The notes below the pieces were generated by a model. The model did no database searches. It was not told the origin of the DNA and worked only from the letters and a program-made list of their open reading frames with translations. Below, in pieces: positions 1,791-4,021 of a stretch of 10,311 nt of DNA (its first letter is position 1; each line of letters opens with the position of its first letter). This DNA comes from Erythrobacter sp. 34-65-8. Lineage in GTDB: Bacteria > Pseudomonadota > Alphaproteobacteria > Sphingomonadales > Sphingomonadaceae. The translations under genes and the position numbers were made by a program. The stretch spans positions 1 through 10,311 of the forward strand of contig NCJP01000035.1 of NCBI GenBank assembly GCA_002278985.1. Direction: 5' to 3'.

Positions 1791-1862
1791 ATGCAACGGC
1801 CCGACACCCGTGTGACGACTACCACCACCCCGGCCCTCCGGGGGCGGTCGGACGCGAACTAA
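1791..1862 (+). CDS. Threonine-rich leader peptide of thrS (23 aa)
   Basis: A short ORF begins with ATG at 1791 and ends with TAA at 1860-1862. Codons 9-13 (1815-1829) are ACG ACT ACC ACC ACC, giving VTTTTTP, and codon 6 is also Thr. A run of five Thr codons in a tiny ORF immediately ahead of a threonyl-tRNA synthetase gene is the signature of an attenuator leader peptide: stalling at the Thr codons would report low charged tRNA-Thr. Known parallels are the E. coli thrL leader of the biosynthetic operon and the Phe leader of pheST. There is no Shine-Dalgarno sequence before the ATG, but the proposed promoter would start transcription at or beside it, as reported for the leaderless trpL of Sinorhizobium. 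A GTG at 1812 is an alternative start that retains all five consecutive Thr codons. The peptide itself probably has no further role, though that is not established. Confidence 0.75.
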   Translation: MQRPDTRVTTTTTPALRGRSDAN

Positions 1863-1915
1863 TCGTTTCCGCCGCCACCCGGTTTCGGGTGGCTGGCGTT
1901 TCCTCCCGAAACCGG
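1824..1915 (+). promoter_or_regulatory. Transcription attenuator region with alternative hairpins, upstream of thrS
   Basis: Four segments fit the classical attenuator scheme. Segment 1 (1828-1833, CCCCGG, overlapping the last Thr codon) pairs with segment 2 (1838-1843, CCGGGG) around a 4-base loop, extendable by ACC 1824-1826 with GGT 1846-1848. Segment 3 (1870-1881) pairs with segment 4 (1886-1898) as the terminator hairpin. The competing 2:3 pairing is GGGGGCGG (1840-1847) with CCGCC-A-CCC (1872-1880), eight pairs with one bulged A. A ribosome stalled on the Thr codons would mask segment 1 and favour 2:3 (antitermination). A ribosome reaching the stop at 1860 would cover segment 2 and let 3:4 form. 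In addition, 1879-1889 and 1905-1915 are perfectly complementary over 11 bases, a further exclusive pairing. Complementarities were read by eye; no folding energies were computed. Confidence 0.6.
1870..1904 (+). terminator. Putative attenuator terminator hairpin of thrS leader
   Basis: Bases 1870-1881 pair with 1886-1898 to give a 12-bp GC-rich stem with a single bulged T (1894) and a GTTT loop (1882-1885). The stem begins 8 bases after the leader-peptide stop codon. It is followed by TTTCCT (1899-1904), a short and interrupted U-tract, so it may be a weak intrinsic terminator or need a factor such as NusA or Rho. Position and competing pairing with 1840-1847 support an attenuator role. Confidence 0.55.
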
Positions 1916-1954
1916 ATTGAATGAAAACGCCGCTTCAAGCGCGCGCGGCCCTGT

Positions 1955-2017: not shown

Positions 2018-4021
2018 ATGACGGAATTGCTCAAGATCAGCCTGCCCGATGGCTCGGTGCGCGAGATGCCGCAGGGCTCGACCCCGCTCGACGTCGCGGC
2101 TGCGATCGGCCCGGGCCTTGCCAAGGCGGCGCTCGCGGCGCGCGTGGACGGGGAACTGCGCGACCTGACCCGGCCGTTCGAAGGCGATGCGCAGCTGGCA
2201 TTGGTGACATCACGCGACGAAGCCGACGCGCTCGAACTGGCCCGGCACGACTATGCCCATGTCCTTGCCGAAGCGGTGCAGGCGTTGTTCCCGGGCACGC
2301 AGATCACCTTCGGCCCGGCAACCGATGACGGGTTCTATTACGACGTGAAAGCCCCCGACACGCGCGAGCCGTTCAGCATGGACGATCTGCCCGCGATCGA
2401 GGAAGAAATGCGCCGCATCATCCGCGCCGACAAGCCGCTGCGCCGCGAAGTGTGGAGCCGCGAGGCGCTGATCGCCAAGTGGGCAGGTGAGGGCGAGAGC
2501 TTCAAGGCCGAATGGGCGAAAGAACTGCCTGAGGGCGAGGAACTGACGGTCTACTGGAGCGGCGAAGACTGGCTCGACATGTGCCGCGGCCCGCACCTTC
2601 CCAGCACCGGCAAGCTCGACCCGCAGGCTTTCAAGCTGATGCGGGTTGCCGGTGCCTACTGGCGCGGTGACCAGAACAATGCCCAGCTGACGCGGATCTA
2701 CGGCACGGGCTGGCTGAACAAGAAGCAGCTTGATGCGCACCTTCACCGGCTGGAGGAAGCCGCCAAGCGCGACCACCGCAAGCTGGGGCGCGAGATGGAC
2801 CTGTTCCACTTGCAGGAAGAGGCCCACGGCAGCGTCTTCTGGCATCCCAAGGGCTACCGCATCTGGCGCGAGCTGGAGGCCTATATGCGCCGCAAGATGG
2901 ACGGCGCGGGCTACCGCGAGATCAAGACCCCGCAACTGATGGACGTGCGCCAGTGGACCCAGTCCGGCCACTGGGGCAAGTACGCGCAGAACATGTTCGC
3001 GGTCCCCGACATCGTGCCCGATGTCGACGAAGAGAGCGGCGCAGCCTCTCCCAAGGTTGCCGATGATGCCGAATGGCTGGCGATCAAGCCGATGAACTGC
3101 CCCGCCCACGTGATGGTGTTCAAGCAGGGCATCACGTCCTACCGCGACCTGCCGGTCCGGCTGGGCGAGATGGGCTGCTGCCACCGCAACGAACCCCACG
3201 GCGCGCTGCACGGGCTGATGCGGGTGCGCCAGTTCACGCAGGACGATGCCCACATCTTCTGCACCGAAGGCCAGGTGGTGGCCGAAGTGCAGGACTTCAT
3301 CGCGCTGGCCGACAGCGTCTATCGCGATTTCGGCTTCACCTACGATATCAAGCTGGCCCTGCGCCCGGACAAGCGGTTCGGGTCCGATGCCGACTGGGAC
3401 AAGGCCGAGCAGGAATTGCGCGATGCTTTGACCGCCAATGGCCTCGAATGGGAAGAACTGCCGGGCGAGGGCGCGTTCTACGCGCCGAAGCTCGAATGGC
3501 ACCTGACCGATGCGATCGGGCGGACCTGGCAGGTCGGGACGATCCAGTCCGACCGGGTGCTGCCCGAACGGCTCGATGCGACCTATGTCGGCGAGGACGG
3601 CGGCAAGCACCGCCCGGTCATGCTCCACCGCGCGATATTCGGCAGCTACGAACGTTTCATCGGCATCCTGATCGAGCACTATGCCGGACGGATGCCGGCG
3701 TGGCTGGCCCCGGTGCAGGCGGTGGTGGCGACGATCGTGTCCGATGCCGACGACTATGCCCGCGATGTCACGGCGAAGCTGGACAGCGCAGGAATCCGGG
3801 TGGAGACCGACCTGCGCAACGAGAAGATCAACTACAAGGTGCGCGAGCACAGCCTCGCCAAGGTGCCGCACCTGCTGGTGGTCGGCAAGCGCGAGGCGGA
3901 GGAAGGCAAAGTCGCCGTCCGCACGCTGGGCGCCGAGCACCAGAAGGTGATGACACTGGACGAAGCGATTGCCATGCTCCGCGCCGAGGCGACGCCGCCC
4001 GATCTGCGCAAGGGAGACTGA
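2018..4021 (+). CDS. thrS: Threonyl-tRNA synthetase
   Basis: This 667-residue cytoplasmic enzyme charges tRNA-Thr with threonine and edits Ser-tRNA-Thr. Domain order is complete. A TGS domain lies at residues ~1-64. The editing (SAD) domain has both zinc/catalytic pairs, HDYAH (H77, H81) and CRGPH (C189, H193). The class II catalytic core carries the zinc ligands C361 (MNCPAH), H412 (DDAHIF) and H537 (MLHRAIFGS), plus motif 2 (CHRNEPHG...[11 protein letters not shown]). The C-terminal anticodon-binding domain starts near residue 565. The ATG at 2018 begins [12 protein letters not shown], the usual ThrRS N-terminus; the longer frame back to 1958 adds an Arg-rich stretch foreign to the family. 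The Shine-Dalgarno is weak (ACGGA about 9 bases upstream). An acidic insertion relative to E. coli (residues ~331-350, around DEESGAA) precedes MNCP. Expression is probably controlled by the threonine attenuator upstream. The stop overlaps the first possible ATG of the next gene (TGATG). Confidence 0.98.

Follow-up and report, generated by a model that had tools for sequence, protein, structure and literature searches.

A probable ribosome-sensing threonine-codon leader with competing RNA helices upstream of thrS in the Sphingomonadaceae

In E. coli, the threonyl-tRNA synthetase gene (thrS) is autoregulated through an operator in its mRNA to which the synthetase (ThrRS) binds, and thrS of the Firmicutes is under the control of a T-box. 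The leader that we describe here, located upstream of thrS in members of the family Sphingomonadaceae, shares its target gene with the E. coli operator, but most probably not the mode of action by ThrRS binding. Threonine codons are also found in the enterobacterial thrABC leader, which differs in that it controls biosynthesis. Finally, E. coli pheST is a classic attenuator with the pheM leader peptide; it resembles the sphingomonad leader in having cognate codons before a synthetase gene and, probably, in using the ribosome as the sensor, but it responds to phenylalanine rather than threonine and uses an ordinary intrinsic terminator.

A threonine leader peptide upstream of thrS is already published, i.e. 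thrL of Streptomyces lividans TK24, which encodes 18 residues with two threonines (MKRVRPFLETTPGFVPAR) and was named from RNA-seq data (PMC8079986), and the statement of an earlier note on the present DNA that no such description was known for thrS therefore does not hold. S. lividans thrL is leaderless, as the sphingomonad leader appears to be, and like the latter has a hairpin without a U-rich stretch; however, it has one hairpin and comes from one genome of another phylum (PMC8079986), whereas the sphingomonad leader combines at least four Thr codons with five helices in 146 genomes. The S. lividans peptide ends in ETTPGFVPAR, which is reminiscent of the C-terminal TTTPGFRGR found in several of the sphingomonad peptides. 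For S. lividans, leuS, trpS and alaS are also listed as preceded by leaders (PMC8079986); in Streptomyces, trpS2 and leuS are predicted to have attenuators of the leader-peptide kind (PMC1262725), and a similar prediction exists for the hisS paralogues of bacilli (PMC2965389). All of these likewise place a synthetase gene under a leader peptide, but they concern other amino acids and phyla, and the published account of the leuS attenuators of Streptomyces includes poly-U tracts (PMC1262725), unlike the sphingomonad thrS leader.

Outside the synthetase genes, the LEU element before leuA in Actinobacteria resembles the sphingomonad leader in its leader ORF with a run of codons, in a pseudoknot, which in the sphingomonads is a putative one, and in an alternative hairpin, but its codon run pairs with the Shine-Dalgarno box of leuA (PMC1262725), whereas the sphingomonad thrS starts at least 112 nt past the leader stop. 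The leaders of the Mycobacterium cys operons also have a codon run without an obvious terminator, for which the authors weigh Rho, but they are described without conserved hairpins, unlike the leader studied here (PMC1262725). In the alphaproteobacteria, the trpL/rnTrpL attenuator of Sinorhizobium meliloti has a leader ORF that begins at the first base of the RNA, but it concerns tryptophan and a biosynthesis gene, and a Thr- and Lys-rich small ORF precedes an aspartate dehydrogenase gene in Sinorhizobium (PMC10117765). In the available part of PMC2330054, thrS is mentioned only as a frameshifted gene. Searches of open PMC full texts turned up no Thr leader before thrS in proteobacteria.

The window analysed here, i.e. 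the whole stretch of 10,311 nucleotides from Erythrobacter sp. 34-65-8, carries a gene for a PhoD-like phosphatase that ends at 1758, upstream of thrS, whose ATG lies at 2018 by direct reading. The gap between the two genes is occupied by a putative promoter, an ORF of 23 codons and several RNA helices (Table 1). The earlier note had described this ORF with its five consecutive Thr codons and its stop, and direct reading bears out all of these positions. When positions 1759-2017 were dinucleotide-shuffled in two sets of 2000, an ATG-initiated ORF with at least five Thr in eight codons arose in one case, and one with at least four Thr in seven cases; on the strength of these shuffles and of the conservation of the leader in 146 genomes, we rejected chance or a plain coding gene as explanations.

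Table 1. Features of the thrS leader region of Erythrobacter sp. 34-65-8 (positions in the window)
Feature	Position	Strand	Description
Putative promoter P1	1755..1783	+	TTGAAG 1755-1760, TATCCG 1778-1783; leader ATG almost directly after
Leader ORF	1791..1862	+	MQRPDTRVTTTTTPALRGRSDAN, 23 codons; ATG at 1791, TAA at 1860-1862, by direct reading; ATG start in 146/146 leaders
Thr codon run	1815..1829	+	ACG ACT ACC ACC ACC, regulatory codons
Helix A	1828-1833 with 1838-1843	+	overlaps last Thr codon; covariation weak
Helix B	up to 1838-1857 with 1863-1882	+	hairpin across stop codon, stop in loop
Helix C	1874-1881 with 1886-1893	+	8 pairs; terminator-like stem of the earlier note
Helix D	1879-1889 with 1905-1915	+	occupies loop and 3' arm of C
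Helix E	1895-1901 with 1925-1931	+	loop contains 3' arm of D
Putative promoter P2	1933..1961	+	CTTCAA-N17-CCATGG, by eye; between leader and thrS
thrS, threonyl-tRNA synthetase	2018..4021	+	TIGR00418, 645.8 bits (cut-off 383.65); Pfam TGS, tRNA_SAD, tRNA-synt_2b, HGTP_anticodon

By eye, the leader was found less than 500 nt from thrS in 12 of 58 thrS-upstream regions, drawn from 59 genomes (that of the window and relatives), and further upstream in a thirteenth (G007); among 80 named genome loci it was seen in 21. A covariance model built from 26 leaders matches 147 of 397 genomes of the family, representing 40 of 91 genera, with one match each, and has no match in the remaining 250, thrS itself being matched in 395 of the 397. 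In 146 of the 147 matches thrS lies downstream in the fetched sequence; one match (L280, E 2.6e-4) has no thrS in the fetched stretch. The number 147 is a lower bound, since at least two divergent leaders recognised by eye (L025 and L026) escaped the model. In a class-wide draw of 387 genomes the model matched seven, four of them in the family; the other three (G630, G798 and G455, E about 1e-4) are weak matches over long ORFs that lack a Thr run, and on visual inspection we regarded them as chance hits. The comparison of thrS-upstream regions among sphingomonads that the earlier note had proposed has thus yielded in-frame Thr runs and covarying, competing stems kept before thrS in many genera of the group, but the breadth implied there was too large, the matches outside the family lying over unrelated ORFs. 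As far as the model reaches, the leader appears to be a patchy trait of the family.

Named holders include Porphyrobacter, Erythrobacter, Parerythrobacter, Croceicoccus, Altererythrobacter, Pelagerythrobacter and Allopontixanthobacter, together with some Novosphingobium, Blastomonas, a Sphingopyxis and a few Sphingomonas; among the loci inspected by eye, the leader was not seen in many others of Sphingomonas, Sphingobium and Sphingopyxis. Thr ORFs in L013, in the tail of the upstream gene, and in L040 were judged by eye to be non-homologous, and in the divergent leaders of L025, L026 and L118 the Thr run is interrupted (STTTST, KTST and TSTTTT). The leader ORF was seen by eye to end mostly 110-170 nt before thrS (50 nt in L061 and 94 nt in L026), and the distance from the leader stop to the start of thrS is 112-170 nt in 132 of the 146 genomes.

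A short ORF with cognate codons, as is characteristic of leader-peptide attenuators, is present in all 146 leaders with thrS downstream (the ORF of L237 was assigned by hand, the remaining ones by script). Each contains at least four Thr codons, which form an uninterrupted run of four or more in 129 leaders and a shorter one in 17, and the ORF is exactly 23 codons long in 90. As 139 distinct peptides occur among the 146 leaders, it is the Thr codons that are conserved and not the peptide itself. The third base of these codons varies within the run, less so in the last codon. Codon use in the leaders is ACC 52%, ACT 22%, ACG 21% and ACA 5%, and that in thrS, counted over the first 1200 nt or less of the gene in 107 representatives, is ACC 48%, ACT 5%, ACG 43% and ACA 4%. 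Both ACC and ACT are read by tRNA-Thr with the anticodon GGU, and the run may therefore sense mainly this tRNA.

The five helices overlap in such a way that several of them compete. Helix B, whose full-length duplex has an energy of -34.2 kcal/mol in the window (mean over 137 leaders, -32.7 kcal/mol), spans the stop codon, and in all but one of 137 leaders (136) its 3' arm shares bases with the 5' arm of C, which is the arrangement of competing helices found in leader-peptide attenuators. At full length, B excludes both A and C; a shortened B is compatible with either. The earlier note had paired 1840-1847 with 1872-1880, a pairing that exists as a part of the larger B, and had placed a 12-bp terminator-like stem after the stop. 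That stem is helix C, a stable GC hairpin (mean energy, -16 kcal/mol) shortly after the leader ORF, but we found eight pairs, to which three more can be added by eye across a bulged T. The spacing suits ribosome-mediated attenuation, as was claimed there, the last Thr codon overlapping A and the stop lying in the loop of B.

Helices D and E are additions to that description. D excludes C, as it takes up the loop and 3' arm of the latter, and D and E together would form a pseudoknot, since the loop of E holds the 3' arm of D. This D/E layer resembles the multi-hairpin his leader, and the possible pseudoknot resembles the LEU element (PMC1262725). C was located in 137 of the 146 leaders, and L171, L193, L225, L230, L245, L253, L270, L277 and L281 are omitted from the helix counts; E was located in 131 of the 137, and its loop measures 22-29 nt in 82 of 94 leaders. 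The free minimum fold of the window sequence, i.e. with no ribosome, has an energy of -74.8 kcal/mol and contains D, an A of five pairs and a shortened form of B, so an untranslated leader would read as a starved one. The best fold with C lies about 3 kcal/mol above this minimum (-71.7 kcal/mol), and the shortened B persists in it beside C, which means that the exclusion between B and C is partial.

Covariation of the arms was assessed by an alignment-free swap test, in which the duplex energy of a leader's own two arms is compared with that of one arm and the partner arms of other leaders. For B, C, D and E a leader's own arms paired better than swapped ones, which the controls did not show. 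With 107 representatives, the test gave p = 3.7e-13 for B, 4e-11 for C, 5.8e-11 for D and 3e-6 for E, against 0.06 for A and 0.05 for the part of B between the stop and C; controls gave p values of 0.056-0.85, the lowest in the wrong direction. As relatives are still among these representatives, the p values are too small, and a set of 24 leaders with less than 75% identity is safer; here we obtained 0.005 for A, 0.0006 for B, 0.00015 for C, 0.0018 for D and 0.027 for E, with 0.053-1 in four controls, the lowest again in the wrong direction. An identity cut of 68% leaves just three leaders. The test is biased for C, since C was selected as a hairpin. The arms of E, chosen as the best helices, change in step among leaders, e.g. 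GGTGTC/GACACC, CGGCATC/GATGCCG and TCGCGCC/GGCGCGA. On this comparative evidence, B, C, D and E covary, and A and the stop-to-C part of B do so weakly.

A -10-like TA is located 12-14 nt before the leader ATG in 104 of the 146 leaders, compared with 1-14 (mean 7.5) in 20 shuffles, and SD-like motifs stand before seven of the 146 leader ATGs but before 73 of the 146 thrS starts. Such spacing, together with the scarcity of SD-like motifs before the leader, suggests that the leader RNA begins at or beside the leader ATG. Likewise, the RNA of S. meliloti trpL is reported to begin with the first base of its ORF (PMC10117765), and starts at or next to the ATG are reported for several S. lividans leaders (PMC8079986). 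P2-like elements, with a partly palindromic spacer, are found by eye upstream of thrS both with and without the leader.

The Thr-codon ORF and the competing helices before thrS fit a sensor of charged tRNA-Thr based on ribosome stalling, and we consider it likely that the region is a ribosome-sensing leader attenuator for thrS; the response to charged tRNA-Thr is what we infer from its architecture. Transcription from P1 would start at or beside the leader ATG. When Thr-tRNA is ample, the ribosome would reach the stop, sit in the loop of B and hold B open, allowing C and then E to form, and thrS expression would be low. When Thr-tRNA is scarce, the ribosome would stall on the Thr codons, block A and leave B free; the full B would capture the 5' arm of C, D would form in place of C, and thrS expression would be high. 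The Thr codon choice of the leaders, with more ACT and less ACG than in thrS, and the similar make-up of S. lividans thrL (PMC8079986) also speak for this reading. P2 would provide a basal thrS transcript and would thereby weaken control by the leader, which counts against the sensor reading, as do the 250 family genomes with no match, the partial exclusion of C by B, the weak covariation of A and of the stop-to-C part of B, and the rarity of U-tracts described next.

Runs of at least five T within the 8 nt after the helix occur in five of 137 leaders for C, in nine of 136 for D and in one of 94 for E, and a terminator scan found no terminator-like site on the + strand of 1700-2100, so that the GC hairpin with a following U-tract that marks an intrinsic terminator is rare at all three helices. 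E as an intrinsic terminator was discarded on account of its tails, and where a gene is inserted behind the leader (see below) E runs into the start of that gene. The earlier note had read C as an ordinary intrinsic terminator with B as the antiterminator, and D and E would then be accessory. The stability of C so soon after the leader ORF, the four T that follow C within 8 nt in Erythrobacter sp. 34-65-8 and the nearly universal overlap of B and C speak for such classical attenuation; however, fewer than five T follow C in 132 of the 137 leaders, the + strand scan came out empty, and the covarying D and E are left unexplained, for which we regard it as rather unlikely. Given these rare U-tracts, we cannot support an ordinary intrinsic terminator; premature termination of another kind, or an output at the level of translation or decay, seems preferable to us. 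For the state with C and E, we consider it most likely that transcription ends prematurely but needs no classical U-tract, and we give this step about an even chance; Rho, for example, could assist, as the C-rich 3' arm of D is left free when C forms.

As a comparison, hairpins upstream of ilvB, picked by eye in seven of eight relatives (L287-L293), reach five T in five of the seven. They are strong and GC-rich, often with a U-run, which amounts to eight T in L287, and they possibly represent a separate attenuator. In these eight relatives no clear cognate-codon leader was found before ilvB, trpE or pheS; the ilvB-upstream peptides include ones with five branched-chain residues out of ten.

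Natural variation at the locus bears on the output as well. In 13 genomes (L217, L189, L199, L206, L210, L211, L219, L220, L221, L223, L224, L234 and L247), about 500 nt with another ORF separate the leader from thrS, and a deleted remnant of the same gene is found in L216. The inserted gene has about 165 codons, starts with MRYYIDTEF or MRYFIDTEF in 13 of 13, and presumably encodes a DEDD-type exonuclease, judging by motif; its copy in L217 has no match among Pfam or NCBIfam models. E is kept in these genomes with different arm sequences (such as CGCGCC/GGCGCG or TGCGCCG/CGGCGCA), and in the 13 genomes and the L216 remnant its 3' arm ends a few bases from the likely ribosome site of the inserted gene. 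Since this gene sits between the leader and thrS, the leader may control it too. In L061, a metagenome-assembled genome, the leader ORF is kept but the stretch from the stop to P2, and with it C, D and E, is missing; if the assembly is right, this is a natural deletion.

The position of E beside the inserted gene, and its persistence there with different arms, speak for a switch acting on translation or RNA decay, in which E would block or free a ribosome or cleavage site downstream. In the 132 genomes with the usual leader-to-thrS distance, on the other hand, no ribosome site lies beside E (86 nt separate the end of E from the thrS ATG in Erythrobacter sp. 34-65-8), and a P2-like element intervenes between the leader and thrS, and such a switch seems unlikely to us. 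An additional action of the leader transcript or peptide in trans, like that of rnTrpL/peTrpL in S. meliloti, would suit a leader ORF that, like trpL (PMC10117765), apparently opens right at the 5' end of its RNA, but a peptide so poorly conserved outside its Thr run makes this improbable. Least credible is the binding of ThrRS to a tRNA-like hairpin in the leader in the style of E. coli thrS: the target gene is the same, and GGUUUC, with GGU in it, is a frequent sequence of the loop region of C, but this region also reads GGGTTC, GATTTC, GGAG, GGGATC and others, and the leader stays clear of the thrS ribosome site, over which a tRNA-Thr-like hairpin of the E. coli type would lie. We have ruled out a tRNA-like operator, as the loops of C vary and are not conserved as an anticodon would be. 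Rfam gave no match at gathering score in the whole 10,311-nt sequence, and a search of 1740-2030 at E values up to 1 returned only an unrelated lncRNA of 7.7 bits; the T-box, Thr_leader and other Rfam families were rejected for lack of a covariance model match.

Returning to the ribosome-sensing leader, we offer a fuller description of it tentatively, as a possibility that we think doubtful in its entirety: a Thr leader followed by a chain of helices that ends in a facultative D/E pseudoknot, has no intrinsic terminator, is specific to the family and controls its own synthetase gene, and that in some genera is re-used on an inserted gene through the location of E beside the ribosome site of that gene. 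The absence of a U-tract and the covarying downstream helices make the leader a good natural system for the study of leader peptides that act without intrinsic terminators, and the natural variants, i.e. the arm changes, the inserted gene and the deletion, are ready-made test material. If true, ribosome sensing before thrS, conserved in many sphingomonad genera and independently described from one streptomycete, would show how freely one gene swaps its sensors.
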